Source: Roseibium sp. TrichSKD4 (GTDB lineage Bacteria; Pseudomonadota; Alphaproteobacteria; Rhizobiales; Stappiaceae). From it: a stretch of 46,272 nt of DNA. The position numbers were made by a program, and so were the translations under genes. Positions 26,504-46,227 of this stretch are shown here, piece after piece. The DNA lies in NCBI RefSeq assembly GCF_000148725.1, contig NZ_GL476322.1, positions 48,910-95,181 of the forward strand, in the 5' to 3' direction. A model generated the notes under the pieces. That model did not search any database, was not told where the DNA came from, and was given only the letters and a program-made list of their open reading frames with translations. The number at the start of each line of letters is the position of its first letter. Positions within the stretch are counted from its first letter, which is position 1.

Positions 26504-27349
26504 CCGATTATAGTTGCCATTAGCAATTTACCTCTTCAGGCTTATGCTGAAGTTACCGATATCAGGTTAGGTTTACTCGGGGCCGGACCGGAAGTGTTCG
26601 CTTATGAAATCTCCGTCCTGAAACTGGCGCTTCATCACGCGGATGCAAAAAGCCAACTGACAATCGTCGACTTGGAAATGCCGCAAGAGCGTGCCCTCGT
26701 GGAGCTTGAGACCGGGCGCGCGGATTTTAATGTGTTTTTCACCGGGTTTTCAGCCAATCGCGAGAAGCGATTTCACCAAATCGACATACCGTTAAGCCGC
26801 GGCATTCTAGGCCACCGTATTTTTATTACCACCAAGGCATTTTTGGACGATCTGGCTGAAACGAGAACGCTAGGGAGTCTTAAGAAGTTTGCAGTGGTTG
26901 GCTCCGGCACTGGCTGGCCCGACACGGAGATATTCCAAGCCAATGGATTTCATGTTGTAGCATCAGACTACGAAAGCTTGTGGCGCATGTTGTCTGCTGG
27001 GCGCATCAACACATTTAATCGCGGTATTCACGAAGCCTTTGTAGAGCACCAACAACGCAGTCAGCAGGATCCGGAGCTTGTAGTGGACCCATCCTTCATG
27101 ATCCGGTACCGGTTCGATTACCTGTTCTATGTGCGAAAGAATAACCAGCGCGTCGCCGAGATCATCGAAACAGGCCTTCGCAACGCCTATGAAAACGGTG
27201 CCTTTCTGGAGCACTTCAACTCACATCCGATGATCCAAAAGGCCATGATGTCAACGGCGGCTCATGAGCGCCTGATTTTTGATATCGATAATCCGCTTCT
27301 GACTAATCGCCAAAGAAACATCCCGGAAGCCTACTGGCACCAATACTAG
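26504..27349 (+). pseudogene. 3' part of a periplasmic substrate-binding protein, interrupted by IS1380
   Basis: About 281 codons continue the frame broken at 24854. After the signal-peptide rest (IIVAISNLPLQAYA) the mature sequence begins EVTDIRLGLLGAGPEVFAYE and resembles type 2 solute-binding domains of polar-amino-acid ABC importers. No importer permease or ATPase genes are adjacent. The open frame that runs from 26294 into it is an artefact of the IS end; its first 70 codons are IS sequence. Without its start region the protein is unlikely to be exported, so the gene is probably dead. Confidence 0.75.
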
Positions 27350-30817: not shown

Positions 30818-30911
30818 CCTCTGGGAAAGCTGAACCGCCTACAAAAAGTCTATGGCTGAAATGCGCATAAAAAGAACGCACGGCCCGGACGACAGGGAAT
30901 TTGAGGCAACC

Positions 30912-31622
30912 ATGATTGAAGAGCAAAGTAAAACAAGAGTGCTCATCGTCGACAGCCAACCGTTTGTTCGGCAGGGAATCAAAGCCTGCCTGAACGCTAC
31001 CGACCATTGTGAAGTGGTGGGAGAAGCGGCTGACGGCTACGCAGCTATTCTTGCGGCAAAAACGTGTCGCCCCCAATTGGTGATCCTGGAGGCTACGATT
31101 ACCGGGATGACGACGTATGAGACCGTCAAGCGGCTGCGCAAGCTTGATGAGAACATGCGTATTCTTATTTGCTTTAACAGCGAAGACCCGTTCGAGATAC
31201 ACGAACTGCTTCAGGCCGGAGCTGGCGGCGTTCTGCAAAAGAGTGCCGAACCAACCGAGCTCATCAACGCTGTTCGCGCAGTCGCGGGTGGTGGCAGCTA
31301 CCTGACCGGCGACCTCGTCAACCGGGTCTTTTCTGCCTCCAGTCAGTCCAGCACTGGCGTCAACCTCTATGGCTTGACGACAAGAGAAACCGAAATCCTG
31401 CGGTTTGTAGCCGACGGCATGAGCAACAAGGAAACGGCAAATCGCCTGAACCTGAGCGTTCGCACCGTCGAAACCCACCGCCTCAACATCCGCCGGAAAA
31501 CGAAGGCCTATACCTTGAGCGACCTTGTGCGTGTGGCACGACGGCTGCGCTTGGTCCCTTCGGCTGACCCGGCCTCATCACCTGATACCGACGACACCCG
31601 CTTTAGCGCGGTGCCGGAGTAA
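30912..31622 (+). CDS. LuxR/NarL-type regulator with a degenerate receiver domain
   Basis: This 236-residue protein starts at ATG 30912 (GAGG at 30903-30906); the frame also allows ATG 30852, which lacks a ribosome site. The receiver domain covers residues 8-125. The DNA-binding domain (about 155-215) is a clear LuxR HTH (YGLTTRETEILRFVADGMSN, then RTVETHRLNIRRK). The receiver keeps Lys110, but Glu60 stands where the phosphorylated Asp is expected (QLVILEATITGM), the acidic pair is only Asp14-Ser15, and the switch Thr/Ser position is not conserved. It is followed by the sctC1-like gene after 4 bp, so it is probably the T3SS regulator. No sensor kinase is nearby. Confidence 0.85.
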   Translation: MIEEQSKTRVLIVDSQPFVRQGIKACLNATDHCEVVGEAADGYAAILAAKTCRPQLVILEATITGMTTYETVKRLRKLDENMRILICFNSEDPFEIHELLQAGAGGVLQKSAEPTELINAVRAVAGGGSYLTGDLVNRVFSASSQSSTGVNLYGLTTRETEILRFVADGMSNKETANRLNLSVRTVETHRLNIRRKTKAYTLSDLVRVARRLRLVPSADPASSPDTDDTRFSAVPE

Positions 31623-31626
31623 AGAC

Positions 31627-32247
31627 ATGACATCTACGACACACATCACCAACCACAAACGTACCAGCAAGGCTTTAACGTTCGGCTTATGTCTGAGCCT
31701 TGCCTTGTGCGGTGCGATCCCGGCTCTTGCCAACGAAGAAACCGCTGCACAGCAACCGTCGCCGGTAGAAGCGGGTGACGCGGTATATGTCGTAGATCAG
31801 GACCTTCGCTCACTCCTCAGCGAATTTGGAAAACGCATCGGCGCCAACCCCGTATTGTCAAAAGGCATCGAGGGCCGGGTGAAAAAAGCCTTCATCCCGA
31901 CTGAGCGCCAGGCCTTTTTGGACGAGATGTCCCGCAGCTACGGCATTGAATGGTATTTTGAGGGAACGACCCTCCACCTTTCGAGCCGAGATGAAATAAC
32001 GTCGAGGTTGATCGGGATCAAATCCTTGTCAGTGAAAACAATCAACTCTCAAATACAGAAAGTTGATCTGAATCCGGCTCGGTACCCGCTCCAGCCCGTG
32101 CCTGAGGCTAACGCTGCAATGTTGACGGCTCCACCGTCTTATATTGCCCGCGTAGAAATCATAACAGAATCAATACTTAAGGCAAAAAAAGAGAATGGAG
32201 AGGACACCATTCGCTTCATAAAATTCGGACGAAAAAGTATCGAATAG
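31627..32247 (+). CDS. sctC1: Short secretin N-domain protein, NolW/RhcC1-like (SctC1)
   Basis: This 206-residue periplasmic protein has a signal peptide (TFGLCLSLALCGAIPALA). The mature part matches the N0/N1 domains of T3SS secretins: VYVVDQDLRSLLSEFGKRIG, IEWYFEGTTLHLSS, and APPSYIARVEII near the end. It stops before any secretin ring domain. Rhizobial T3SSs likewise split SctC into the short RhcC1 (NolW) and RhcC2. It begins 4 bp after the regulator gene, and GGAG at 31617-31620 serves it. The ring-forming part is not in the window and must be encoded elsewhere or be missing. Confidence 0.8.
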   Translation: MTSTTHITNHKRTSKALTFGLCLSLALCGAIPALANEETAAQQPSPVEAGDAVYVVDQDLRSLLSEFGKRIGANPVLSKGIEGRVKKAFIPTERQAFLDEMSRSYGIEWYFEGTTLHLSSRDEITSRLIGIKSLSVKTINSQIQKVDLNPARYPLQPVPEANAAMLTAPPSYIARVEIITESILKAKKENGEDTIRFIKFGRKSIE

Positions 32248-32445: not shown

Positions 32446-32613
32446 ATGAACAACGTTCAAGGCGCAGGCGCAGCAGGTGGCGCAAACGGTAACGAAGGCA
32501 ACAGCACTCTGACCCAAGCATTCGACCATGCAATGCAACAGGCTCAGCGGACTCTTGCTACCACGACTATCAAGGGTGCTTCCCTGTACGCTCTGAAGCA
32601 GCGTCCGCAGTAA
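32446..32613 (+). CDS. Small T3SS-associated protein, needle/pilus subunit candidate
   Basis: This 55-residue protein starts at ATG 32446 with GGAG at 32435-32438; the frame is open to 32347 but that stretch has no ribosome site at its start and looks non-coding. The N-terminus is Gly/Ala/Asn-rich (NNVQGAGAAGGANGNEGN) and the rest is one amphipathic helix (LTQAFDHAMQQAQRTLATTT), ending in KQRPQ. This resembles the plan of T3SS needle/pilus subunits (SctF, NopA). A long hairpin follows directly, as often found after highly expressed needle genes. It shares an AFDHA/SFDHA motif with the putative rod protein at 36898. Confidence 0.55.
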   Translation: MNNVQGAGAAGGANGNEGNSTLTQAFDHAMQQAQRTLATTTIKGASLYALKQRPQ

Positions 32614-32713: not shown

Positions 32714-33682
32714 ATGACGCAAACATCAGTCCAAGGTTCAGCCGTTTCCGACCGCCTCGATGGGTTTCCCAGCCGGGCGGTTCAGTACGTTCGTGACCTG
32801 TTTGGATTGAAGGTTCGGATTGTAGGTGGCTACCACGAGGGCGTTTCCAAAACGTCCAACCAACTCTCATTCACGATCGGCAGCGACGGTAATGATGATT
32901 TTTGCCTGTTTGCTGAAACGATCGAGCCTTCGCATCTGAAGATCGAGCGCAATCACGCGCTTGCCGGATCTGCCCGGATTACCGCTCAAAATGGGCCCGT
33001 CATTCTGGAGAATGGCTCACGGCTTGAAGCTGGCACATTCGCAGAAGTAGACCTGCCGACGACGGTGCGCGCAAATGGCACAACGATCGAATTCGAGAAG
33101 ACTGGAAATGTCCTTGAAATCGTTCGCAACTTTATTCTTGTCCTGCTGATTTTTGTCGGCAGTTGGCTTGCTGCAGACCTCCTGCGGGTGACCTTCGACA
33201 AAAGCGTTCTTCAGCCGGCGAATGCTGCAGTTGATGCCTTGACCGAGAAAGTCGATGCAGCCTTGCCCGGGTTAACGGGACAAAAACCAACTCAACAACA
33301 TGCTGAACTGCTTCAGACCCGCATTCGCGATGCCGGTCTGGCGCACAGGATCGTCGTGACAGAAGGTCGGGACAATGTTCTCGTTGCCTCAGGGTCCATC
33401 CCGGACGCAGAAGCGGCAAGCTGGCGGACGATCCTTAAGTGGTTCGATGAGCTGGGATCTCCGATGCGCCTGGTCAATAACGTTGTCAAAACCAAGAAAG
33501 ACGCGTCCGTACCGGCGATCGCGAGCGTTTGGTTCGAGAACGGCAAGGCACAAGTTCTTCTTTCTGACGGGAATGTGGTCGGTGTTGGCGACACATATGG
33601 CGGCGGCTGGAAAGTTGAAGCCATCACCCGCGAGGGAATTGAAATCTCCCGTGGCGGAAAGAATGTGAAGCTAACCTTCTAA
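32714..33682 (+). CDS. sctD: T3SS inner-membrane ring protein SctD
   Basis: This 322-residue protein has the SctD (YscD/PrgH) plan. An N-terminal cytoplasmic FHA-like beta domain spans about 25-125 (FTIGSDGNDDFCLF, FAETIEPSHLKIERN). A single membrane segment (ILVLLIFVGSWLAADLL) is at about 139-155. A periplasmic part with BON-like ring-building domains follows, ending in VVGVGDTYGGGWKVEAITRE. It is shorter than Yersinia YscD. It forms the outer part of the inner-membrane ring with SctJ and contacts SctC. It opens the plus-strand run ending in sctU. Confidence 0.82.
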   Translation: MTQTSVQGSAVSDRLDGFPSRAVQYVRDLFGLKVRIVGGYHEGVSKTSNQLSFTIGSDGNDDFCLFAETIEPSHLKIERNHALAGSARITAQNGPVILENGSRLEAGTFAEVDLPTTVRANGTTIEFEKTGNVLEIVRNFILVLLIFVGSWLAADLLRVTFDKSVLQPANAAVDALTEKVDAALPGLTGQKPTQQHAELLQTRIRDAGLAHRIVVTEGRDNVLVASGSIPDAEAASWRTILKWFDELGSPMRLVNNVVKTKKDASVPAIASVWFENGKAQVLLSDGNVVGVGDTYGGGWKVEAITREGIEISRGGKNVKLTF

Positions 33683-33698: not shown

Positions 33699-34127
33699 AT
33701 GGCCAAAATTAATGGGGAATTCCAACCCCCGCGCTCCTCTGAGGCTTTCGGAGCAAGACCCGCTCAAAAGAGCTCGCGAACTGCACCTGTTCGTAAGCTT
33801 AAACCAGCTGTAGGGCCAGAGCATACAGCGCCGCAAAAACCGGCGGCTCCAGCTCTCAAGCGCCAACCGGCAAAACCGACGAATGTGGAATCGGTCCCTT
33901 CTCTGTCGGACGTATCACCAGCGGATGTGGTTGGCCTGTCCAACATGTCGCGCTCCCGCATGATGTACAGCCTCACGCGGATTGAAGCGGAGCTGGACCA
34001 AATGCTCGAGGAAGAAGCTGATCCGACCGCCCGCGCCGAGATCGAACTTGGCTTGCAGGTGGTAACCGAAAGTCTCCGCCGCCTGTCTCTGGTGCAGGGC
34101 GGAGCAGATGCTTTGATTTCGAAATAA
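33699..34127 (+). CDS. sctX: Putative SctX (YscX-like) export protein
   Basis: This 142-residue protein starts at ATG 33699 with AGAGGAG at 33685-33691. The N-terminal 80 residues are Pro/Ala/Lys-rich and probably disordered. The C-terminal part is helical (SLTRIEAELDQMLEEEAD, then EIELGLQVVTESLRRLS), as in the C-terminus of YscX. Assignment rests on this and on its position just before a TPR protein (SctY-like) and sctV, the yscX-yscY-yscV order of Ysc-type systems. YscX is an early export substrate that binds YscV. Direct sequence similarity is weak. Confidence 0.5.
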   Translation: MAKINGEFQPPRSSEAFGARPAQKSSRTAPVRKLKPAVGPEHTAPQKPAAPALKRQPAKPTNVESVPSLSDVSPADVVGLSNMSRSRMMYSLTRIEAELDQMLEEEADPTARAEIELGLQVVTESLRRLSLVQGGADALISK

Positions 34128-34157
34128 CCGGATTATTTTTTGAAGGTGATCGCGAAT

Positions 34158-34574
34158 ATGGCTGAAAAGCTGGCAGAAGAGAATGAAGTCTTTGTTTCCG
34201 AAGGAGCCGTCGCATCGACGCCTCTGACGGAAGAAGATTGTCGTGCCCTAAAGTCTCTTGCTGCCTATCAGCTTCGCTACGGTGAAACTGACGAAGCGAT
34301 CGCCCTTCTATTGGTAAACCGCCGACTATGGCCGGAAGACATGGACACCTTGCGCCTTTTGGCTCAGGCCCTTTTGAAAACCGGGCATACGGACGCGGCC
34401 GAAACCATTCTCGATGAATTGGATGATCTGGATCCACGCGCTGCCAAGTCAGATAAGCCCCTGCTACTCCGCAGTGTGGTGTTGTTGCGCCGGATGAAGA
34501 TGACGGAGGCCAGAAAGGCCTTCCTGCAATATCTGAACCGTCGCCGGTCGAAGGGAGGGATGCATGCTCGATAG
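34158..34574 (+). CDS. sctY: Putative SctY (YscY-like) TPR chaperone
   Basis: This 138-residue protein starts at ATG 34158 (AAGGTG at 34143-34148); a TTG at 34140 is in frame but lacks a ribosome site. It contains TPR-like repeats: RYGETDEAIALLLVNRRLWP, then TLRLLAQALLKTGHTDAAET and RRMKMTEARKAFLQYLNRR. YscY is a TPR chaperone of YscX encoded right before yscV; the order here is the same. Its end overlaps the sctV start by 11 bp. A general T3SS class II chaperone is the alternative. Confidence 0.6.
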   Translation: MAEKLAEENEVFVSEGAVASTPLTEEDCRALKSLAAYQLRYGETDEAIALLLVNRRLWPEDMDTLRLLAQALLKTGHTDAAETILDELDDLDPRAAKSDKPLLLRSVVLLRRMKMTEARKAFLQYLNRRRSKGGMHAR

Positions 34575-36666
34575 CATTACCCGTAACCTTCGCAACAGAC
34601 AGGATCTCGTTCTCGTCACCTTGATGATGATGACGATCGTCCTGATGATCCTGCCGATGCCGACGCTTCTTTTGGATGCGCTGATCGGTTTGAACATCAG
34701 CTTTACGGTATTGATCCTGACCGTCGCCATCTATCTGAAACGCCCGGACAGCTTTTCGACCTTTCCGGCTGTTATTCTGATCGCAACAGCGTTTCGTTTG
34801 GCAATTTCCATCTCGACCACTCGCCTGATCCTTAGTGAGGCAGATGCGGGCGCGATCATTGAAACTTTCGGCACCTTCGTGACTCAGGGCAACGTGATTG
34901 TGGGCCTTGTGATCTTCCTGATCATCACCACAGTCCAGTTTTTGGTGATCACAAAGGGTTCCGAGCGCGTTGCGGAAGTTTCTGCGCGTTTTGTTCTGGA
35001 CGCCCTTCCGGGCCGTCAGATGAGCATCGATGCTGAAATGCGTGCCGGAGATATCACCGCAGAAGAAGCCAAAACCCGTCGTCGCCAACTGGATCGCGAG
35101 AACCAGTTCTATGGCGCGATGGACGGTGCGATGAAGTTCGTCAAAGGCGACGCCATTGCAGGTCTCATCATCATTGCCGTCAACCTGATTGGCGGTATTG
35201 GCGTTGGTATGCTGCAATACGGCCTGTCTGTCGGCGATGCAATCAACCTATTCTCGCGTCTAACTATTGGCGATGGCCTCGTTGCTCAAATCCCGGCGCT
35301 CTTTATGGCGCTGTGTGCTGGTACGGTTATCACGCGCGTAACCACTGATGATCAGTCTGACCTTGGGTCGGACATGTTCAAGCAGCTTATCGACAGCCCG
35401 CGGACCCTTTGGGTTTCTGCGGTTGTGGTCGGCGGTCTTGGACTGGTCCCGGGCTTCCCGAAAATCGTTTTCTTCTCCATCGCAGCTGGCCTTGTGCTTT
35501 TGGCCCTGTCGCTCACGCGCAAAGCACGTGAAGAAACAGAAGCAACCGATGCGTTGGTGGCACAAGCGAAAACCGAGGAAGCTGTTGCTGAGGCACCTGA
35601 AACAGAAGCTGCACAGGTTGATGATCTGGCGACAATCCGCGTCAGCCCTGCCCTGATGGCTTCGCTGGACCGGGATTACTTCGTCACCGAGCGAACCAAC
35701 GCACAGCAGGCCTATACATTGAATGTCGGTCTGGAAGCCCCCCGGTTTGGCCTCTTGGAAGATTATGGTCTCGAGGAGCGCAGTTTCGAAATCGATCTGG
35801 ATGGGGTGCCGGTGTTCTCCGGGTACTTCCCACGGGATTCAATTCTTATTGAAGCTGATGAGGAAGTAGCTGAACTTGCAGGAGTTAGCACATCACCGGT
35901 TGATGGGGCTTGGCCGTTCCGCTCACCGAAATGGGCTCCGGCCCACAGCCTGAGTAAAGTTCAGTCAGCAGGCATCTTGGCGCGGACAACCGAGCAATCT
36001 CTTGTTGCTCTAACCATGCATTATCTCAAAGAAAACATTGGACGGATGCTCGGCTTCCGGGATGTGCAGTCGGTCTTTGGGGAACTGCACGCCAACAGTC
36101 CCGAACTGGCAGAACATATCGGACAGTCTGTTACCCCTGCCCGCATGCTGGATATCATGCGGCGTTTGTTGGACGAAGGTGTCCCGCTCTCCTCACGACG
36201 TGTGCTGTTTGAGGCCATCGCAGAGCTCGCAGGTCAGGAACAGGACACAGCCCTTTTGGTTGAGCAGATCCGCCGCGCTATGCGCCGCCAGATCTGTAAT
36301 GACATCGCTGATCGTAACCGCGTGATTTCCGCATATATCGTAGAACCGGACCTCGAACAGGCGTTGAGGTCGTCCCTGCGGCATACCGAAACAGGCAGCT
36401 ACCTGATGCTGTCCAACACGGTTTCTGCTGCCTTGCTGCAGCAACTACAGAAAATAAAGACACCGGATCATAGCAACGTCACAGAACCGGTGATCGCCAC
36501 TTCGACGGATTTGCGCAGGCATCTCCGTGGATACCTGGTGGAACATGGCCTGACATGTAAGGTGATTTCTTTCCAGGAAGTCTCGCCGGAGTTTTATCTC
36601 CAGCCAATAGGGACACTGACCGGCTCGGATGAGCCGTTCAAGATGTCCATGAGTTTTTCAAACTAA
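34564..36666 (+). CDS. sctV: T3SS export gate protein SctV
   Basis: This 700-residue FHIPEP/FlhA-family protein has eight expected membrane segments in residues 15-330. The conserved FHIPEP region is RFVLDALPGRQMSIDAEMRAGDI (about 145-167). Further blocks are GAMKFVKGDAIAGLIIIAVN and a short linker rich in Glu/Ala (325-355). The C-terminal cytoplasmic domain, which forms the nonameric substrate-sorting ring, is at about 365-700. Length matches YscV/InvA. It is translationally coupled to sctY. Confidence 0.96.
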   Translation: MLDSITRNLRNRQDLVLVTLMMMTIVLMILPMPTLLLDALIGLNISFTVLILTVAIYLKRPDSFSTFPAVILIATAFRLAISISTTRLILSEADAGAIIETFGTFVTQGNVIVGLVIFLIITTVQFLVITKGSERVAEVSARFVLDALPGRQMSIDAEMRAGDITAEEAKTRRRQLDRENQFYGAMDGAMKFVKGDAIAGLIIIAVNLIGGIGVGMLQYGLSVGDAINLFSRLTIGDGLVAQIPALFMALCAGTVITRVTTDDQSDLGSDMFKQLIDSPRTLWVSAVVVGGLGLVPGFPKIVFFSIAAGLVLLALSLTRKAREETEATDALVAQAKTEEAVAEAPETEAAQVDDLATIRVSPALMASLDRDYFVTERTNAQQAYTLNVGLEAPRFGLLEDYGLEERSFEIDLDGVPVFSGYFPRDSILIEADEEVAELAGVSTSPVDGAWPFRSPKWAPAHSLSKVQSAGILARTTEQSLVALTMHYLKENIGRMLGFRDVQSVFGELHANSPELAEHIGQSVTPARMLDIMRRLLDEGVPLSSRRVLFEAIAELAGQEQDTALLVEQIRRAMRRQICNDIADRNRVISAYIVEPDLEQALRSSLRHTETGSYLMLSNTVSAALLQQLQKIKTPDHSNVTEPVIATSTDLRRHLRGYLVEHGLTCKVISFQEVSPEFYLQPIGTLTGSDEPFKMSMSFSN

Positions 36667-36691: not shown

Positions 36692-36868
36692 ATGGATCCG
36701 ATTGGAGCAGCGCAACAAGCGCCGGGGGCACAAGCCCAAGCAGCAAATGGCAACCAGAACAATGGTGTCGAAGATCAGGCAAATGAAGCAGCTGAAAAGT
36801 TCATGACCCAGCTGTCCCTGATGGTTTTCAACGAAGTCTGGAAAGTCGGCCAGGAAAACGCGCAGTAA
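36692..36868 (+). CDS. Small T3SS protein, SctF-like needle candidate
   Basis: This 58-residue protein starts at ATG 36692 with AGGAG at 36682-36686. It begins MDPIGAAQQAPGAQAQAANG, a polar unstructured segment. A single amphipathic helix follows (EAAEKFMTQLSLMVFNEVWK, then VGQENAQ). The size and order before an SctI-like gene and sctJ match sctF in Ysc systems. Homology is not obvious by eye, so the needle role is inference; the gene at 32446 is the competing candidate. Confidence 0.55.
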   Translation: MDPIGAAQQAPGAQAQAANGNQNNGVEDQANEAAEKFMTQLSLMVFNEVWKVGQENAQ

Positions 36869-37378: not shown

Positions 37379-38131
37379 ATGTACGTACTGTCCTCGATCA
37401 AGCGGTTCCTGCCCAACGGGCGATTCGTAGCGGCGATATTGGTTGCCGCTTTTCTGGCGGGTTGTCAGTCCGAGCTCTATAGCAAGCTGGACGAACGCGA
37501 CGTCAACGAAATGGCGTTTGTTCTGGAGAGCAATGGTATTTCGGTGTCTCGAGAACGGGACAGCGAAGGCACCTACACGCTCTTTATTGAGCGTGGAGAC
37601 ACCGCGCGCGCTTATGGAATTCTGGCGCAAAACGGTCTGCCTCGCCAAAAGTTTGACGGATTGGGTGAGGTTTTCTCCAGCGACAAGCTGGTCTCGACCG
37701 CCTTTGAAGAAAAGGCGCGCTTTATCCATGCTGTGACTGAAGAGCTTTCCAAAAGCATATCCAGAATCGCAGGCGTGACCTCGGCAGAAGTCCACATCAC
37801 CCTGCCGGAAAAAGCTCCATTGGAAGAGGAAACAGCCCCATCTCGCGCGGCTGTCTTCATCTATCACTCGCAAGGCACCGACCTGAATGCGCAAATTCCG
37901 GTAATCAAAAACCTCGTGGCGAGCAGTGTTGAACGCTTGAGCTATGAGGATGTCAGTGTTGGCCTATTCCCAGCCAACTCGCCGATGGTGCCCTCGTCGG
38001 TCACCTCACAGCTGCAATCTTTGCCAACGCTTCCCATCGCAGCCTTGATCGCGGTTATCTTGCTCTTCTTTGCCTACAACAAGACGAAATCGCGACCTAA
38101 AACGCAATCTCGCGGTCAGCGAATGGACTAA
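37379..38131 (+). CDS. sctJ: T3SS inner-membrane ring lipoprotein SctJ
   Basis: This 250-residue lipoprotein has the lipobox LAGC with Cys29 and then SELYSKLDERDVNEMAFVLE, the conserved SctJ/FliF-like ring domain. The second ring domain contains ARFIHAVTEELSKSISRIAG and VHITLPEKAPL. A C-terminal membrane segment (IAALIAVILLFFAYN) and a short basic tail follow. It forms the inner-membrane ring with SctD. The length is typical. Spacing to sctK is 6-9 bp. Confidence 0.95.
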   Translation: MYVLSSIKRFLPNGRFVAAILVAAFLAGCQSELYSKLDERDVNEMAFVLESNGISVSRERDSEGTYTLFIERGDTARAYGILAQNGLPRQKFDGLGEVFSSDKLVSTAFEEKARFIHAVTEELSKSISRIAGVTSAEVHITLPEKAPLEEETAPSRAAVFIYHSQGTDLNAQIPVIKNLVASSVERLSYEDVSVGLFPANSPMVPSSVTSQLQSLPTLPIAALIAVILLFFAYNKTKSRPKTQSRGQRMD

Positions 38132-38137
38132 GGGGAC

Positions 38138-38783
38138 ATGATGAACACCTATTCCCCCTTGCCTGAAAACGAGCTCGTCTCAGTTGGTAGTATCCATCCA
38201 GATTGGATAGAGCAGCCTGGATCCAGCTTTGGTTCGGAAGCTGTGGTTGAAACCCTTTTGGCAAACCCGCGCATCAATAAGAAGGTTGTCGAGCAGGTTC
38301 TGCAGCAAAACAACCTACTCTACGATGATGTTCTGGACTGCAGCCCTGATGATGCCTTGGCGGCTCGCCTTGCTTTTCAGGACTTCAATCGCTTTACCCA
38401 ACAGGTCGGTTTGGTGCTTTACGGCGATTATCTTGCCGGGTCAGTAGACCCGCAAAACCTGCACCAATTGACTGAGTTCTTTGACATCCAGGATCTTAGA
38501 CGTGCCGTTCGTCTGCGGTCTCTTGCCTCCTATCAGGATGACATGCAGTTCGACTTTCTCAGTTCCCGGGGTTGTTGCCTCTACTGGAAAAATGTGTGTT
38601 TTGGCCTGGGCCAACACAGTTCCCTACACGCTGCAAGCGCGGGTTCGGCTGATGTTTTCCCAAAGCCAGATGGAAGGCCTTGAGTATTTCGTAAAGCGTT
38701 GTCAATCCGCCGATGGCGTGGTCCGTGCCGTTGCCCAAAATGTTGGCCTGCCAGCATCACTTGGCGGAGGTAGCTACCAATGA
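38138..38783 (+). pseudogene. sctK: T3SS sorting-platform adaptor SctK (NolU/YscK-like), frameshifted
   Basis: The gene starts at ATG 38138 or, better by spacing to GGGG at 38132-38135, at 38141. It reads in one frame to about 38568 (SctK-like region LHQLTEFFDIQDLRRAVRLR), then must shift +1 near CCCGGGG (38566-38572) to continue as GVVASTGKMCVLAWANTV through VGLPASLGGGSYQ to a stop at 38783 that overlaps the sctL start as ATGA. Without the shift the frame runs into unrelated sequence and stops at 38683 (181 residues). The shifted product would be about 214 residues, the family size. The position between sctJ and sctL is that of nolU/sctK. Real mutation, programmed frameshift or sequencing error are all possible. 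Confidence 0.7.
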
Positions 38784-39442
38784 GCCGTCATTACACTGGA
38801 CGCATTGTAAAACTTCAACCCGCTGGAGATCCCGGCGAAACGGATGCTGACGGTAATCCCGCAATTGGCACAGCCATTCCGACTGAGGACGCCGGACCGG
38901 TTCTGTCCCCGCAAGAGCAGGCAGAAGCCGAGGCTGCTCGCATCCTCGCTGAGGCAGAGGAAAAAGCAGCTGAGATCCTTCAAACAGCTGAAGAAGACGG
39001 TCTGGCACGCGGCAAGAAGGCTGCCTGCCTGAAATTTCTCGAACTCTCAGGCAAACTGGAAGCAGACGTTTATGCCTTGGAAGGGGAAGTTGCGACGATT
39101 GTCTCTGACAGTGTTGAGAAAATCCTGGCTGAGACGCCGAAATCCGAACAGCTTGCCGGAGTGGTCCGATCAGCCATTCGCGATTTCCGCAAACGGCGCT
39201 CTTTAGTGCTTCATGTTGCAGAGGAAGATCTGGAACAGGTCAAAGCAGTGGTCTCGCAATGCCAACGCGGAAAGAACCACCCGATTTCCGATATCCAGAT
39301 TGGCCATCACCTGCCAGAGGGCGAATGCCATCTAACGGATGGGACAGCAGAGTTACGCATTGATGTTGAAACACAACTGGCCGCATTGCGGCACGCGCTT
39401 ATGACGCCGGAACCTGAATCCGATCATCGCTTGGCAGGATAA
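38780..39442 (+). CDS. sctL: T3SS stator protein SctL
   Basis: This 220-residue protein of the SctL/FliH family links the ATPase to the sorting platform. A long Ala/Glu-rich helix (about 43-75: AEAEAARILAEAEEKAAEIL) precedes the C-terminal ATPase-binding domain, with SLVLHVAEEDLEQVK and CHLTDGTAELRIDVETQLAA, the conserved FliH/SctL end. The start overlaps sctK by 4 bp. Confidence 0.88.
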   Translation: MSRHYTGRIVKLQPAGDPGETDADGNPAIGTAIPTEDAGPVLSPQEQAEAEAARILAEAEEKAAEILQTAEEDGLARGKKAACLKFLELSGKLEADVYALEGEVATIVSDSVEKILAETPKSEQLAGVVRSAIRDFRKRRSLVLHVAEEDLEQVKAVVSQCQRGKNHPISDIQIGHHLPEGECHLTDGTAELRIDVETQLAALRHALMTPEPESDHRLAG

Positions 39443-39454
39443 GGGACTTTTAAA

Positions 39455-40789
39455 ATGCCCTCCCCTCAAAGCGCAGTCATTCAAACTCTTGAACGGCGGC
39501 TCCACAAGGCGCAGCTCTATAAGTCTGTTGGCAAACTGACAGACATCTCACCGGTTCGTCTGACAGCTGATATCGAAGGTGTTGCCATCGGCGACATCTG
39601 CGAAATGATTGATCGGGAAACGGGTTACACCGGCTTTGCACGTGTTGTTTCAATCAATACCGGTACAGCTATTCTCGCGCCTTTGGGGGCGATTGAGGGT
39701 TTGTCTGCCGGTGCAGAAGTGATCCCGACCGGCGAAGACTTCACCTTTACCTGCGGCGATGGTTTGCTCGGAAGCATGTTGGACGGTCTTGGTCGCCCGC
39801 TCGAAACCGGGTTTTCGACATCCGGTTCTGATTGGGTTAAACGCCGAATATCTCCGACGCAAATCAACCCACTTTCCCGTCCTCCAATCGACACGGTTTT
39901 TGAAAGTGGCGTCAAGGCGATCGACGGATTGAACACGCTCGGCGAAGGCCAACGGATCGGGCTTTTCGGTGACCCGGGATCGGGTAAATCGACGCTGATG
40001 GGAAGCCTTGCCCGCAACTGTAATGCAGATGTGTGCGTTTTGGCCATGATCGGTGAACGTGGCCGCGAAGTTCGGGAGTTTATGGAGCGACAGCTGCCGC
40101 CGGCGTTTCGCAGCCGCAGCGTCGTGATTGCGTCAACTTCCGACAGCCCAGCGATGCAGCGGATCCTTGGCGGCTACATTGCAACCTCCATCGCGGAATA
40201 TTTCCGCGATCAGGGTAAAAGCGTCCTTTTGCTTTTTGACAGCGTCACCCGATTTGCACGCGCTTTGCGCGAGGTTGGCCTTGCAGCGGGCGAAGCGGCG
40301 GTCCGTCGCGGTTTTACTCCGTCGGTTTACGCAGAACTGCCCCGGCTGATTGAGCGCTGCGGCAAAACGGACCGCGGCAGCATCACGGCGATTTACACCG
40401 TATTGACCGAAAATGAAGGCCTTGATGACCCAATTGCCGAGGAGGTGCGCAGCATCACGGACGGGCATATCATCCTGTCTTCGGAACTCGCTCACTCTGG
40501 CCGGTATCCGGCGATTGATGTCCTGCAAAGCCGCAGTCGTTTGATGAACGAAATTGTGACACCTGAGCATATTCAAGCCTCTTCAAAAGTTCGAATGCTT
40601 ATGTCGAAATTTCTCGAGATCGAATTGCTGTTGCAAGTGGGCGAATACAAGGAAGGTGCTGACCCGGTCGCGGATGAAGCAATCGCCAAGCGAGAGCAAA
40701 TTGCACAATTCCTGACCCAAAACTCCCATGATGGGGCGGCTTATCCTGAAATCCTGGAACAGCTGATTGCCTGTGCCGGAACTGAGTGA
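39455..40789 (+). CDS. sctN: T3SS ATPase SctN
   Basis: This 444-residue F1-beta-like ATPase has Walker A GDPGSGKST (172-180), the catalytic-Glu block IGERGREVREFME (about 198-210), Walker B SVLLLFDSVTRFARALREVG and the DP[IV]AEEVRSITDGHI block. It unfolds substrates and detaches chaperones at the base of the export apparatus. The length matches YscN/RhcN. FliI is excluded by context. Stop and the sctO start overlap as TGATG. Confidence 0.96.
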   Translation: MPSPQSAVIQTLERRLHKAQLYKSVGKLTDISPVRLTADIEGVAIGDICEMIDRETGYTGFARVVSINTGTAILAPLGAIEGLSAGAEVIPTGEDFTFTCGDGLLGSMLDGLGRPLETGFSTSGSDWVKRRISPTQINPLSRPPIDTVFESGVKAIDGLNTLGEGQRIGLFGDPGSGKSTLMGSLARNCNADVCVLAMIGERGREVREFMERQLPPAFRSRSVVIASTSDSPAMQRILGGYIATSIAEYFRDQGKSVLLLFDSVTRFARALREVGLAAGEAAVRRGFTPSVYAELPRLIERCGKTDRGSITAIYTVLTENEGLDDPIAEEVRSITDGHIILSSELAHSGRYPAIDVLQSRSRLMNEIVTPEHIQASSKVRMLMSKFLEIELLLQVGEYKEGADPVADEAIAKREQIAQFLTQNSHDGAAYPEILEQLIACAGTE

Positions 40790-41226: not shown

Positions 41227-41254
41227 CAGGTGGTGATCACTTTGAAAGGGCACA

Positions 41255-42388
41255 ATGACCAACCCGAGGACACTTCAGAATTTGGAAAAGGCGATTGCCC
41301 GGACCTCAAGACAGGCAGCTGACGCGCCGCTTGAGGATCATGTCGCTACTTCTGAAGTCTATGGTCAGAACGGACCGAAATACGCCGCGCCGACCCCCAA
41401 TTCCCAAATGCCAAGACAACGGCCTCAAAAGCCGTCAAGAGCAGAAATGCCAATCGAGGCCGCTGCCTTGAGTGACCGCCAACCGGAAACTTTTCGCCAG
41501 CTCTGGATCGAGAGTTCAGCCGAAATGCCGTTTTATGATTTCGGCTTTGATGGCGAGTTGACACCTGCCGAAGAGTGGCTGGGAGATAGTTTCGCCCCCG
41601 CATTGCAGGTCTATGGCCAGTTGGGCAACGAAGAGTTCAACCTACTTCTGTCAGCAGACTTTGTTGAATACCTTGTCACACAATTGCCGGAACCAATCAG
41701 TTTCCAAGATGGTAGCCCACATGATCAGGCCCTGCTGACCGAACATTTTCTAACCCCGCTTATTGCGCCCTTTGAGCAGCATGTAGGCCGCGACCTTTCC
41801 TTTATCGGCGCTGATTTTGTTCAAGCCGGAACGGCTCCGGTTGATGTATATGGCATGCTCAACAGCGACGGTGGCGGCTTTCCAGTCGGGCTACATTCAC
41901 CTAGCCATCGATTCTGGGCTCTTCTTCACAAACTCAATACCAAGCGTGTCGCCGGTTTGGTCAAACGTGACGTCCAGATCAGCTTCGGCTCGGTTCTCCT
42001 GATGCCTGAGGAGGTTGATCAACTGGCAAATGGGGACGTGATAGTCTTGGAAGAAGCACAAGGCCCGGAACTACAGGGGGACCTCCTGATCGAAGGCCAA
42101 TCGGCATATCCGATTGTTGTGACACCAAGCAAGGCTACCATCGTCCCCCCGCCGGAAGAAGAGACTCCTCCAAATTCTGCTGGTGAGTTAATGCTCAGCT
42201 TTGTTCCGGCAAAACTGGCCATGACCGACAACGAGATCGTAGCCCTTAAGGTCGGCACTGAACTTCCTTTTCAGCGCCCTGAGAACGGTGCGGTTGAGAT
42301 CCTCTGTAACGGCGAAAAAGCCGGTTCCGGGAACCTTGTTCTTCAGGACGGCTGCATGGGCATCAAAGTACAGGAAATCACTCGCTAA
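41255..42388 (+). CDS. sctQ: T3SS sorting-platform (C-ring) protein SctQ
   Basis: This 377-residue protein has two SpoA domains at the C-terminus: about 230-290 (VKRDVQISFGSVLLMPEEVD) and about 305-377 (LMLSFVPAKLAMTDNEIVAL, ending IKVQEITR). The N-terminal 200 residues are variable, as usual. It forms the cytoplasmic pods with SctK and SctL. The last SpoA domain may also be made separately, as in YscQ-C; an in-frame ATG at residue 318 of the region exists but has no clear ribosome site. The stop overlaps the sctR start as TAATG. Confidence 0.9.
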   Translation: MTNPRTLQNLEKAIARTSRQAADAPLEDHVATSEVYGQNGPKYAAPTPNSQMPRQRPQKPSRAEMPIEAAALSDRQPETFRQLWIESSAEMPFYDFGFDGELTPAEEWLGDSFAPALQVYGQLGNEEFNLLLSADFVEYLVTQLPEPISFQDGSPHDQALLTEHFLTPLIAPFEQHVGRDLSFIGADFVQAGTAPVDVYGMLNSDGGGFPVGLHSPSHRFWALLHKLNTKRVAGLVKRDVQISFGSVLLMPEEVDQLANGDVIVLEEAQGPELQGDLLIEGQSAYPIVVTPSKATIVPPPEEETPPNSAGELMLSFVPAKLAMTDNEIVALKVGTELPFQRPENGAVEILCNGEKAGSGNLVLQDGCMGIKVQEITR

Positions 42389-43041
42389 TGCTCGACCTTG
42401 GAGAAAACTCGTTTGGGGTCATAGCGCTTGTCTTTTTCATGGCATTTCTGCCGATCATCGCTGTGACTGTAACTGCTTTTGCAAAAATTGCCGTCGTTCT
42501 GATGATTGTGCGGAATGCAACGGGCTTGCAGAACCTTCCACCCAACGTTGTGATGTATGGTCTTGCCATCATCTTGTCGGCCTACATCGCCTTCCCAGTG
42601 GTGGCTGATTCCTTCGAACGTGTTCAGCAAACCGTTCCCGAGCTGGAAACAGCGCAGGACTGGATAAAGGCCGGCCAAGAAGGCTCTGCCCCGCTGAAAG
42701 AGTTCTTGAAGAAACATGCGGATGAAAAACAAACGGCCTTTTTCCTCGCTTCCACCCGAAAAATCTGGGGTGATAAATACGCACAAGATGCGACACCGGA
42801 GGATCTAGCTATTCTCGTACCCAGCTTCCTCTTGTCGGAACTGACCAAGGCCTTTGAAATCGGCTTCCTCTTGTTTCTGCCGTTCATTGCCATTGATATC
42901 ATCGTCACCACCGTCCTGATTGCGCTTGGCATGATGATGGTGCCACCGTCCACCATATCCATTCCCTTCAAACTGATGCTGTTCGTGTTCGTTGAAGGGT
43001 GGAGCAAGATCGTTCAGGGCTTGCTCCTGACCTACGCCTAG
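42388..43041 (+). CDS. sctR: T3SS export gate protein SctR
   Basis: This 217-residue FliP/SctR-family protein has four membrane segments. FLPIIAVTVTAFAKIAVVLM is in the first half and PPNVVMYGLAIILSAYI follows. The C-terminal family signature is SELTKAFEIGFLLFLPFIAI. It is the core of the SctRST export gate. Start ATG 42388 overlaps the sctQ stop. Confidence 0.97.
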   Translation: MLDLGENSFGVIALVFFMAFLPIIAVTVTAFAKIAVVLMIVRNATGLQNLPPNVVMYGLAIILSAYIAFPVVADSFERVQQTVPELETAQDWIKAGQEGSAPLKEFLKKHADEKQTAFFLASTRKIWGDKYAQDATPEDLAILVPSFLLSELTKAFEIGFLLFLPFIAIDIIVTTVLIALGMMMVPPSTISIPFKLMLFVFVEGWSKIVQGLLLTYA

Positions 43042-43049
43042 GAGGACTT

Positions 43050-43319
43050 ATGGGAGACGCAGCATACGCAACTATCCTCTACGAGATCCTCTATGACGCC
43101 GTGATCTTCACTGGGCCGCCGCTTATTCTGGCAACCTTGATTGCGTTCCTGATCGGCCTGTTTCAGGCCGTCACGCAAATTCAGGAGCAGACCCTGCCGC
43201 AGACCCTGAAGATTGTGGTCATTACAATCATCCTGTTGTTTTTCGGCAATGTCCTTGCCGCACCCCTTTATGCCACGACGTTGAATATCTTCAACAATTT
43301 CGGAACGATTGTGAACTGA
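43050..43319 (+). CDS. sctS: T3SS export gate protein SctS
   Basis: This 89-residue FliQ/SctS-family protein has two membrane hairpins: VIFTGPPLILATLIAFLIGL, then FQAVTQIQEQTLPQTLKIVV with the conserved Q.QEQTL. The start at ATG 43050 is fixed by GGAGG at 43041-43045, which overlaps the sctR stop; longer frames upstream read into sctR. It wraps around SctR in the export gate. Confidence 0.96.
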   Translation: MGDAAYATILYEILYDAVIFTGPPLILATLIAFLIGLFQAVTQIQEQTLPQTLKIVVITIILLFFGNVLAAPLYATTLNIFNNFGTIVN

Positions 43320-43321
43320 CC

Positions 43322-44131
43322 ATGTTTATGGAAGCCGCGGCGCAAGAGCTTCTGTTACAGGCTGTTTTCGACAACCTGAAGATCATGGTTTTGGCAACTG
43401 CGCGCCCGTTTGGGCTGGCCATGACTTTCGTCGCCTTTGGGTGGGCCCACCTGAATATCGGCGTCTTAAGAATGATCTTTGCAATCGCGATTGCCATGCC
43501 GGTCGCGATCCCGTTGTTTAGCCTTGAGCAAAGCACGATCCCGGAGCTTCCTTATCCGTATGTGCTGGTGCTCGTGAAGGAAATTTTTATCGGCGGTGTC
43601 TTTGGCTGGGTTGCGTCTTTACCCTTTACCATCGCAGCTTCAAGCGGTCACATCATTGATGGATATCGAGGCGGTGCTTCGGGAGACCCGGACCCGACAG
43701 GCGGGCAAGTTACGCCTTATGCGAAACTCTTCCTCGTAATTTCCTTGTTTCTGTTCGCGAACCTCAACGGCTTCTGGATCGTCACCGATACAATCTATTC
43801 CACCTATGAAGTCTGGCCGATGTTCGATGCACTTCCGCTCGAGCGCGGGGTTGAGCCGATTACCATTTTCAATGTGTTGGAAGGGTTGGTCAGCTCGGCG
43901 CTTGTAATTGCCACACCGCTCCTGCTTGTCATGTTTGTGGCTGATCTCATCTTCCTGCTCACGACAAAGTTCGGAAAACAGATCAACGTCAGCCATCTGG
44001 CCTTTTCAGTCAAAAACACAATCGGGATTATCCTTCTGCCGGTCATGTGCTTGATCCTCATTCGCATTTTCAAGAATGAACTTAGTCACATGTACGAGGT
44101 AGACACCCTGCTGAAAGGGGTTCTGCCATGA
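43322..44131 (+). CDS. sctT: T3SS export gate protein SctT
   Basis: This 269-residue FliR/SctT-family protein has 6-8 membrane segments. ELPYPYVLVLVKEIFIGGVF, with the conserved K.E..IG motif, is near residue 75. Further on lies VMFVADLIFLLTTKFGKQIN, a conserved SctT block. It completes the SctRST gate. It begins 2 bp after the sctS stop, and its end overlaps sctU as ATGA. Confidence 0.95.
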   Translation: MFMEAAAQELLLQAVFDNLKIMVLATARPFGLAMTFVAFGWAHLNIGVLRMIFAIAIAMPVAIPLFSLEQSTIPELPYPYVLVLVKEIFIGGVFGWVASLPFTIAASSGHIIDGYRGGASGDPDPTGGQVTPYAKLFLVISLFLFANLNGFWIVTDTIYSTYEVWPMFDALPLERGVEPITIFNVLEGLVSSALVIATPLLLVMFVADLIFLLTTKFGKQINVSHLAFSVKNTIGIILLPVMCLILIRIFKNELSHMYEVDTLLKGVLP

Positions 44132-45180
44132 GTGGAGGTGATACTTCAGAGGAAAAAAACCTCCCCGCGACGGAACATACACTCCGAAAAGCGCGGGAAA
44201 AAGGACAAGTCGCCCAGAGCAAGGACTTCGTCACCATGCTCATCACGTTGGGCGGATTGTTCTTCGTGATTATGGCCTGGCCATCCTTTGTTCGGATGTT
44301 TTCAAACAGTCTAGACTTCGCCCTGCGGGGCTTTCAGATGGAACTGGAGGATTCCTATCGACCCATGTTTGTGGTGTCGATCCTTGAGACTCTCTACAGC
44401 CTGATCCCGCTTGTGGTCATTCTCGTACTCACTGCAATCTTGGCGAATATCTTGCACAAAAAGGGCATCCCCTTCTCTATGCATCCGATTGTGCCAGACT
44501 TCAAAAAAATCAATCCCGCCAGTGGCTTCAAGAAAATGTTTGGGGCTCGAGGGATGACAGAGTTTTCTGTCTCCCTTCTCAAGGTTCTGATTTGGTTTGT
44601 CGTTGCGGGCATGTTCATTTGGCTGGCTCTGCCCGCCATTCTCAACAGTCCCATCTGTGAGTTCCCCTGCACAACAGCCGTCACCAATGACTTGCTAATC
44701 AAGATTATACTGGCCGCCGCCATTCTTTTGGTAATCGGAGGTGTGCTTGATCTGCCTTTGCAGGAGGCCTTGTTCAAAAAAGAGAACAAGATGACCCGCA
44801 CGCAGCTGAAAAAAGAGCTGAAGGAGACCATGGGCAATCCCGAGTACAAGAGTGCTCGCAAGGAAGCCCATAAGGAAATGACGCAGGTCAACACAACTGC
44901 GGGCAAGGACGCGACAGCGAACCTAATCGTCAGCGGCGCTGATATGGCGATTGCCCTTCGCTTTCATGCCGAAGACACACCGGTCCCCATCGTGGTGGCT
45001 AAGGGGCGCGGCGAACAAGGCGATGAAATTCTGGCAAGCGGCGGACAGATGAGTGTTCCAATTGAACATGAGCCGGAATTGGCCCAAGATCTGTTCCGGA
45101 CGCTGTTGCCTGGTCAGCAAATTGAGGAACGCCAGTTCCAAAAAATTGCCCTGCTGATCATCAGAAACGGCCTGCTCTAG
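44128..45180 (+). CDS. sctU: T3SS switch protein SctU lacking the NPTH autocleavage motif
   Basis: This 350-residue FlhB/SctU-family protein starts with the typical EEKNLPATEHTLRKAREKGQ. Four membrane segments lie in residues 36-205, followed by the linker KKENKMTRTQLKKELKETMG. The cytoplasmic domain is collinear with YscU up to the end (ASGGQMSVPIEHEPELAQDL). At the place of the invariant self-cleaving NPTH, however, the sequence is S269-G270-A271-D272 (LIVSGADMAIALRF, codons at 44932-44943). The catalytic Asn and Pro are absent, so spontaneous cleavage should not occur. It is the last T3SS gene of the run. Confidence 0.93.
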   Translation: MSGGDTSEEKNLPATEHTLRKAREKGQVAQSKDFVTMLITLGGLFFVIMAWPSFVRMFSNSLDFALRGFQMELEDSYRPMFVVSILETLYSLIPLVVILVLTAILANILHKKGIPFSMHPIVPDFKKINPASGFKKMFGARGMTEFSVSLLKVLIWFVVAGMFIWLALPAILNSPICEFPCTTAVTNDLLIKIILAAAILLVIGGVLDLPLQEALFKKENKMTRTQLKKELKETMGNPEYKSARKEAHKEMTQVNTTAGKDATANLIVSGADMAIALRFHAEDTPVPIVVAKGRGEQGDEILASGGQMSVPIEHEPELAQDLFRTLLPGQQIEERQFQKIALLIIRNGLL

Positions 45181-45458: not shown

Positions 45459-45484
45459 AATGTCCATTTTCGTTAATGGACATT
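45459..45484 (+). promoter_or_regulatory. Hairpin covering the tnpA start codon
   Basis: AATGTCCAT (45459-45467) and ATGGACATT (45476-45484) form a perfect 9-bp stem with an 8-nt loop. The putative tnpA ATG is the first triplet of the right arm. In read-through transcripts from outside the element the start would be hidden, limiting transposase production, a known strategy in other insertion sequences. Confidence 0.5.
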
Positions 45485-45883
45485 GTGAGGCACATTTTGG
45501 GTACGAAGAAGGGCAGCAAGAAGCGGTTTTGGTCGGATGACGAGAAGCGGTCGATCTGTTTGCAGGCCAGAGTGCCGGGGGTTTCGGTTGCGCAGGTTGC
45601 GCGCCGCTCTGCGATGAATGCGAACCTGATCCACAACTGGCTGCGTGATGAGCGGTTTGCGCCAGAAGACAGCGATTGCGTCCTTGATGGAGCGGCGTTT
45701 CTACCAGTGGAGATAGAGGGCCCGCAGGCCGCACCAGGCCACCAGATCGCGGCGCTTGCCTCGGATATGCCGTTGTCGGCTCAGCGGGTTGATATCACGC
45801 TGTCGGACGGGCGGCGGGTATTGGTGGAAGGGACGACGGCGCTGCCGACGGTGCTGGCTTTGGTTGAAGGTCTAATGCCGTGA
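45476..45883 (+). CDS. tnpA: IS66-family accessory protein TnpA (OrfA)
   Basis: This 135-residue protein has an N-terminal helix-turn-helix ([20 protein letters not shown], then [14 protein letters not shown]), typical of IS66 OrfA. The C-terminal part carries [20 protein letters not shown], also typical (the metal-independent DGRRV block). The ATG overlaps an inverted repeat and no Shine-Dalgarno site is seen, so the exact start is uncertain (GTG 45485 is an alternative). It overlaps tnpB by 4 bp. Confidence 0.88.
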
Positions 45884-46227
45884 TCCCCGTGCCGTCCAAC
45901 GCGCGGGTTTGGCTGGCTGCCGGGGTGACGGACATGCGGCGCGGGTTCAACACTTTGGCGGCTCAGGCGGAGAAGGTTCTGGAGCTTGATCCCTATTCTG
46001 GACATCTGTTTGTGTTCCGGGGACGGCGCGGTGATCTGCTGAAGATCATCTGGTGGGATCGACAGGGCGCATGCCTGTTCAGCAAGCGCCTTGAGAAGGG
46101 CCGGTTTGTTTGGCCTGCTGCGAAGGACGGTAAGGTCAGCGTGACGCCCGCGCAATTGTCGATGTTGCTTGAAGGCATAGACTGGCGGATGCCGCAAAAA
46201 ACATGGCGGCCCCTGAGCGTCGGATAG
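45880..46227 (+). CDS. tnpB: IS66-family accessory protein TnpB (Orf2)
   Basis: This 115-residue protein is a clear IS66 Orf2: [20 protein letters not shown] near the start, [20 protein letters not shown] in the middle and [20 protein letters not shown] later. It is needed with TnpA and TnpC for transposition. The gene appears intact. Confidence 0.95.

Follow-up and report, generated by a model that had tools for sequence, protein, structure and literature searches.

We analysed a window of 46,272 nucleotides from Roseibium sp. TrichSKD4 (contig NZ_GL476322.1, positions 48,910 to 95,181 of the forward strand), which carries a type III secretion system (T3SS) gene cluster ending in sctU, the gene for a homologue of the export-gate switch protein. 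This gene is the last of a collinear run (sctJ, NolU-like, sctL, sctN, sctO, sctQ, sctR, sctS, sctT, sctU) in which NolU and sctO are assigned by position only. The initial annotation of this DNA had claimed that SctU lacks the NPTH self-cleavage motif and has SGAD at residues 269-272, with clear codons and a frame open to the normal C-terminus. The codons bear this out, and the open reading frame (ORF) of 350 amino acids (aa) is full-length and reaches the normal C-terminal region. PF01312 matches residues 8-343 (E 1.7e-73, 248.2 bits, cut-off 24.4), and TIGR01404 matches at 4.6e-71, yet its 240 bits lie below the curated cut-off of 358. The flanks of SGAD align with NPTH homologues (A-I-A-L after the motif, P287 and AKG), and no NPxH was found at any other place in the whole protein. 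Since turning SGAD into NPTH codons takes at least five base changes across the four codons, a single sequencing error is excluded. As read from its sequence, the window SctU is outside the autocleaving SctU/FlhB class, with SGAD replacing the Asn-Pro cleavage site.

The model of the cytoplasmic domain keeps the SctU C-terminal fold and sets SGAD at the NPTH turn. In both models, a two-residue turn lies between strands at the motif site. Only the cytoplasmic part was searched against the PDB because the full-length AlphaFold2 model was poor (mean predicted local distance difference test score 51.8, four sequences), and the top structural matches of the cytoplasmic model were the EscU N262A/P263A and CT091 mutants. 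Among 28 non-redundant NPTH-less SctUs, we observed clade-specific conservation of G329 (28/28), R278 (26/28) and D315 (25/28). The window SctU departs from the clade consensus in having HAEDT for VRGET.

The nearest relative, Roseibium sediminis KCTC 52373, was found by a scan of genome contigs (80% identity). The motif of its SctU reads SGGD, and the two genomes are collinear from ~30.7 to 45.2 kb of the window. R. sediminis has two other PF01312 matches, FlhB and a short FlhX-like protein. FlhB (locus L004), which adjoins a FliR-family gene, keeps NPTH while the T3SS SctU does not, so that only the T3SS copy has undergone the loss. These sequences are most simply explained if the NPTH loss predates the split of the two Roseibium lineages. 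The FlhX-like protein (L006, R. sediminis C35) corresponds only to the end of the FlhB domain that follows NPTH (positions 260-334 of PF01312) and adjoins an ORF with a Flg_hook (FliK-type) match. Between the window and R. sediminis, nonsynonymous divergence (dN) of the T3SS genes is 0.05-0.33 and synonymous divergence (dS) 0.9-3.2 or beyond estimate. In every core gene with an estimable dS, dN is below dS by a wide margin, the omega values being rough because dS is saturated; dS was not computable for SctU, SctL, SctT and the 159-aa ORF. For SctU, dN after the motif (0.127) is not above that of the membrane part (0.158). The SctU C-terminal domain is under purifying selection.

Next to R. sediminis, the best SctU matches in 385 genomes of the class came from genomes G258, G553 and G410, all NPTH-less, followed by G431 (NPRH) and G122 (RGPA). 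Plasmid SctUs carry RGTA (NGR234 pNGR234a), EEGA (pNGR234b), EERS (Ensifer adhaerens) or TPDG (R. johnstonii) at the motif. Of 286 matching plasmid records, 18 were chosen, for the most part high-ranking ones; fifteen of their SctU loci were NPTH-less, and three had NPTH (Mycetohabitans, B. japonicum pBjCNPSo34a and Phyllobacterium A18/5-2). A search with a seven-row profile of the Rhc T3SS family gave matches in 326/398 genomes of the phylum and 170/197 relatives of G122; the 57 loci examined from these (L147-L203) comprised 39 NPTH-less and 18 NPxH. The resulting 137 rows represent 132 distinct SctU/FlhB proteins, 74 with NPxH and 58 without; the NPTH-less fraction is not a frequency in nature because resemblance to Rhc queries decided which rows were read. 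L001, L005 and L007 are one gene, L145 and L146 duplicate L007 and L010, and L158 repeats L045; the FlhX-like fragment L006 was excluded.

All 61 NPTH-less rows are without NP in the motif loop; one of them, L122, has an NPFH, but this sits outside the C-terminal domain, at residue 134 of the reading. N, P and H are each present in 61/61 non-redundant NPTH-type homologues (T in 52/61), against an entropy of 2.2-2.8 bits in each of the four motif columns of the 28 NPTH-less relatives, and chance was rejected as the source of SGAD on this ground. A taxon effect was rejected because NPTH is kept in the R. sediminis FlhB and in L126, a plasmid-borne Bradyrhizobium SctU that is not of the Rhc type. 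The third motif residue varies in 10/76 N-P-x-H rows (L002, L003, L044, L047, L048, L049, L052, L156, L169 and L171), which read NPEH, NPRH, NPSH, NPKH, NPVH or NPQH. The SctU of R. etli p42d (L115, 15001-15798) stops at 265 aa and has no C-terminal domain at all; such Rhc-III SctUs of 265 aa without the switch domain were seen in two genomes, R. etli p42d and G110 (L016, L040).

SctU trees were built from the columns before the motif only, excluding the C-terminal domain, so that the trait cannot itself make the tree. For a careful tree, the 132 distinct proteins were reduced to 88 representatives by 80% clustering. All 26 NPTH-less representatives lie on one side of a single branch (bootstrap 89, Shimodaira-Hasegawa-like approximate likelihood ratio test 79), which recurs in 90% of 200 bootstrap trees. 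Leaving aside G410, the other 25, including the window, NGR234 and R. etli, are held together at 100/96, and the NPTH-less group includes the rhizobial Rhc-I, Rhc-II and Rhc-III systems. A quick tree (73 rows, 7 near-duplicates dropped) unites 21/22 NPTH-less rows with G410 outside, and a single clade is not rejected (approximately unbiased test, p 0.287). In the SctV tree, 12/12 NPTH-less members group at 100/100, with no G410 SctV in reach. The Rhc clade proper thus probably goes back to one ancestral NPTH loss, and G410 represents either its deepest branch or a second loss. Judged by the SctU and SctV trees, the SctD type, the short SctC, the gene order and the absence of SctP from its usual place, the window cluster is a member of the Rhc T3SS family. 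All Rhc-clade SctUs examined, that of R. sediminis included, are NPTH-less. The initial annotation had missed that NPTH loss is a trait of the Rhc family and not peculiar to this genome.

Along with the motif, a gene for the ruler protein SctP is missing from its usual operon position. The observation that no SctP-like gene lies between sctO and sctQ was correct, as the gap is 28 bases. The comparison with other systems was limited to operons ordered sctN-sctO-...-sctQ-sctR. An extra ORF (241-266 aa) separates SctO and SctQ in 6/6 NPTH-keepers (G466, G003, G045, G049, G012 and G156) and in 0/7 NPTH-less operons (window, R. sediminis, G258, G553, G410, G122 and NGR234). NPTH-keepers with another order or no sctN in reach were left out (G431, G308, G255, G330, G284, L117 and L126), and L111, L113-L116 and G110 entered by sctN-sctR distance only, with no ORF listing. 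Five of these NPTH-keepers have a distance of 2337-2568 bases and the sixth, G049, one of 1763 bases because its sctR ORF is over-extended upstream; the 13 NPTH-less clusters with both genes have 1015-1706 bases. The extra ORF of G466 is HpaP/SctP (PF09483, 5.8e-9), and the NPTH-keeping Mycetohabitans has an annotated sctP within its cluster. No PF02120 or PF09483 match was found among the Pfam-scanned ORFs of the window cluster, although Pfam likewise misses two ORFs at the SctP position elsewhere; the six PF02120 matches of R. sediminis all lie off the T3SS contig. According to Gazi et al. (PMC3574062), all Rhc subgroups are without an hrpP/yscP-like gene; neither "NPTH" nor any word starting with "cleav" occurs in that paper, and "NPTH" does not occur in Tampakaki 2014 (PMC3973906).

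The remaining genes of the cluster and its surroundings are listed in Table 1. The short SctC has a PF03958 (Secretin_N) match under the cut-off (3.7e-4), and nine further NPTH-less clusters have homologous ORFs of 185-256 aa; the SctC of three NPTH-keepers measures 581-668 aa. No separate secretin was found among the window ORFs scanned, and the single PF00263 match of R. sediminis belongs to a Tad locus with CpaB, CpaD and T2SSE. A secretin-less system as a separate novelty is weakened for Rhc because Rhc systems are described as splitting the secretin (PMC3973906) and because a PF00263 gene adjoins sctV in G553. Five further NPTH-less clusters (G553, L111, L113, L114 and L116) have relatives of the 55-aa ORF ahead of sctD. 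In the SctK/NolU-like gene, a first frame corresponds to R. sediminis residues 1-175 and a second to 135-212; this apparent frameshift is either a real lesion or a sequence error. Genes for HtpG and an unknown 351-aa protein lie upstream of the T3SS in the window and in R. sediminis alike. The IS66 Orf2 gene, the ORF preceding it and the DDE transposase gene have no counterpart in the compared R. sediminis region. Overall the locus is not decaying, although the SctK/NolU-like ORF has a frameshifted appearance and an IS66 gene lies behind sctU.

Table 1. Features of the T3SS cluster and its surroundings (positions in the window; numbers after family accessions are E-values).
Feature	Position	Strand	Remarks
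DDE transposase, upstream of T3SS	24945-26297		PF13701
351-aa protein, upstream of T3SS	26294-27349		Also in R. sediminis
HtpG (Hsp90), upstream of T3SS	27525-29390		Also in R. sediminis
LuxR-type response regulator, upstream of cluster	30852-31622	+	PF00072 2.6e-18; PF00196 1.2e-15
Short sctC, 206 aa, RhcC1/NolW-like	31627-32247	+	N domains only, no secretin barrel; ORF (240 aa) opens at 31525
55-aa ORF before sctD	32446-32613	+	Pilin or needle candidate by position; kept in R. sediminis
sctD of rhizobial T3SS type, C-terminal domain Y4YQ	32714-33682	+	PF23893 9.6e-8, 32.2 bits, cut-off 27; PF21934 3.1e-7
142-aa ORF	33699-34127	+	Kept in R. sediminis; no family match
TPR protein adjoining sctV (rhizobial y4yS position)	34140-34574	+	TPR families, best E 1.1e-5
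sctV	34564-36666	+	PF00771 1.3e-191
58-aa ORF	36692-36868	+	Pilin or needle candidate; kept in R. sediminis
NopB/SctI-position ORF, 140 aa	36898-37320	+	Kept in R. sediminis; no significant family match
sctJ	37379-38131	+	TIGR02544 4.3e-56, over cut-off
NolU/SctK-position ORF, 181 aa	38138-38683	+	Apparent frameshift against 213-aa R. sediminis ORF
SctK/NolU-like gene, both frames	38138-38783		Second frame 38481-38783
sctL	38780-39442	+	TIGR02499 5e-15
sctN, ATPase	39455-40789	+	TIGR02546 1.1e-160; TIGR01026 over cut-off
sctO-like, 146 aa	40786-41226	+	By position; no family match
sctO-sctQ gap, 28 bases	41227-41254	+	SctP-position gene of 241-266 aa here in NPTH-keeping operons of same layout
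sctQ	41255-42388	+	PF01052 2e-11; TIGR02551 3.3e-7
sctR	42388-43041	+	NF009438 6.2e-79, over cut-off
sctS	43050-43319	+	ORF opens at 42999; start set from R. sediminis homologue
sctT	43322-44131	+	TIGR01401 3e-32, under curated cut-off
sctU, 350 aa	44128-45180	+	ATG start; export-gate switch protein homologue without NPTH
SctU cytoplasmic part, residues 212-350	44761-45177	+	Modelled alone; SGAD at strand end and beta-turn
SGAD codons AGC GGC GCT GAT	44932-44943	+	SctU residues 269-272, at NPTH place
ORF, then IS66 Orf2 gene, directly behind sctU	45476-46227
IS66 Orf2 gene	45880-46227		PF05717

We propose that the cluster belongs to a Rhc-type T3SS family that has probably lost self-cleavage by Asn cyclisation together with SctP, leaving a switchless gate. 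The known cleavage chemistry cannot run in the window SctU because Asn and Pro are replaced by Ser-Gly: the Asn is required for cleavage, and exchange of Pro for Gly leaves HrcU with no cleavage that can be detected, as described in PMC3040844. SctU would stay one chain. Its C-terminal domain would not be a switch that cleavage primes and a ruler reads, but a fixed export-gate platform that accepts substrates in one state only. Export order might then be set by other layers (transcription, chaperones, sorting by SctV/SctQ), and no length gate would act on the outer appendage. Because HpaC (SctP) is reported to bind at NPTH in Xanthomonas HrcU, with binding lost in N264A, P265A and P265G (PMC3040844), ruler loss and motif loss were plausibly one linked event; with the ruler lost, one reason to keep the motif would be gone, and the reverse. 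Rhc-III, without the whole C-terminal domain, could be the end point of that loss. A related Rhc system does work: the Rhc-I system of NGR234 is described in a review as forming T3SS-dependent pili with NopA/NopB, and Nop secretion is lost in nopB mutants (PMC3973906). The clade-wide co-absence of SctP and NPTH strengthens the earlier suggestion that the apparatus has no classical switch for length control, and overall the initial annotation is supported in part.

Several points weigh against this proposal. The uncleaved state of Rhc SctU is read from sequence, and the PDB search favours matches to uncleaved mutants, as cleaved entries are split into two chains. Blocked cleavage is reported as harmful in NPTH systems (EscU N262A, PMC3189125; Spa40 N257A, PMC3542141), so a compensating mechanism would be needed. 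The clade-specific conserved residues may point to a new switch and not to the lack of one. The extra ORFs of G003 and G049 have no Pfam match and, with those of G045, G012 and G156, are SctP by position only. The proteins examined are mostly top matches to Rhc queries and not a random sample. The SctN tree needs two changes, with G410 among NPTH-keepers at 89/94, and the quick SctU tree leaves G410 outside, so a second loss may have occurred. Finally, the function of the Roseibium system is putative, as no secretin partner was found for it among the window ORFs scanned or in the R. sediminis genome.

The main rival explanation is that a switch is kept and works without cleavage, with the C-terminal domain toggling by means of its newly conserved residues (R278/GET hairpin, D315 and G329) and with SctV, or an SctP analogue that escaped recognition, as its reader. 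The near-invariance of these residues among NPTH-less domains would fit this, as would the behaviour of Xanthomonas HrcU Y318D, which is described as passing late substrates with reduced cleavage and no HpaC, so that conformation can replace cleavage (PMC3040844). However, the Rhc-III SctUs (R. etli, G110) are without the whole domain, the sctP position holds no extra gene in any of the seven NPTH-less operons, and the window protein itself departs from VRGET. We consider a cleavage-free switch unlikely. Less probable still is cleavage of SctU near SGAD, by another self-cleavage chemistry or by a host protease. Ser and Asp are able in principle to support an acyl shift or Asp chemistry, and both are kept in the SGGD of R. 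sediminis, but the clade has no conserved loop nucleophile (the commonest residue at 269 is Gly, 15/28). Many Rhc loops are, moreover, one residue shorter in the alignment, and the turn has two residues in both models.

An apparent SctK/NolU-like frameshift, the DDE transposase ahead of the cluster and the IS66 gene that directly follows it might suggest that the window T3SS is decaying and that SGAD is drift. Against this, the R. sediminis cluster is collinear and its loop nearly the same, dS far exceeds dN in every core gene where it is estimable, the part after the motif has not diverged faster than the membrane part, and the NPTH-less NGR234 system is reported to be functional (PMC3973906). 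A single-strain lesion or decay as the main account is rejected by the R. sediminis SGGD and by selection; it is largely refuted, and we give it hardly any credence. Nothing counted for an NPTH hidden by misalignment or sequence error, whose probability is negligible given 61 rows without NP in the loop, the number of base changes needed and the agreement of an independent genome.

If the proposed loss of the switch is true, SctU autocleavage would not be a universal requirement of type III secretion. NPTH autocleavage is central to models of substrate switching in injectisomes and flagella, and it is presented, for example in PMC3189125, as a general FlhB/YscU property found in all T3SS. A working family without cleavage or ruler would separate the role of cleavage (length gating, early-to-late switching) from the role of SctU, and would provide a symbiont model for testing cleavage-free type III secretion. 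We lean towards the wider view that the whole Rhc branch, including the symbiotic rhizobial systems, is a natural switchless lineage in which one ancestor lost the cleavage site and SctP together and the domain was re-specialised and then deleted in Rhc-III. The new part is the family-wide NPTH loss, older and wider than the initial annotation supposed; the absence of a ruler in Rhc is already in print (PMC3574062). No published report of NPTH loss in Rhc SctU was found in the accessible, mostly non-subscription literature on SctU/NPTH, rhizobia and Roseibium T3SS.

Compared with known systems, the window cluster most resembles Rhc-I, Rhc-II and Rhc-III (pNGR234a RhcU, pNGR234b RhcIIU and R. 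etli p42d). It has in common with these the order J-(NolU)-L-N-(O)-Q-R-S-T, mostly followed by U, no SctP between sctO and sctQ, an SctU without NPTH and, for Rhc-I and Rhc-II, a short SctC. Its SctD carries the Y4YQ domain, named after NGR234. The Roseibium clusters nevertheless form a separate lineage, with sctD, the TPR gene and sctV upstream of sctJ in one run, and the window SctU is 27-32% identical to the five aligned NPTH-less members other than R. sediminis. Besides the secretin of its Tad locus, R. sediminis yielded no match that could be RhcC2; RhcC2 is reported as absent in R. etli (PMC3973906), and so is not universal to Rhc. Unlike Rhc-III, the window SctU keeps its C-terminal domain.

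The autocleaving YscU, EscU, Spa40, HrcU and FlhB share with the window SctU the membrane and cytoplasmic domains of PF01312, the same predicted C-terminal fold and a loop at the same turn. The window SctU differs from this class in having no NPTH, Phe for the Tyr of LARxLY and an operon whose usual SctP position is empty. It has Gly at the Pro place, as in the laboratory mutant HrcU P265G, for which cleavage is described as undetectable (PMC3040844). EscU N262A/P263A, the CT091 mutant and HrcU P265G are all laboratory mutants of naturally NPTH systems, with secretion impaired where described. In the window SctU, by contrast, the non-NPTH state is natural and common to its clade.
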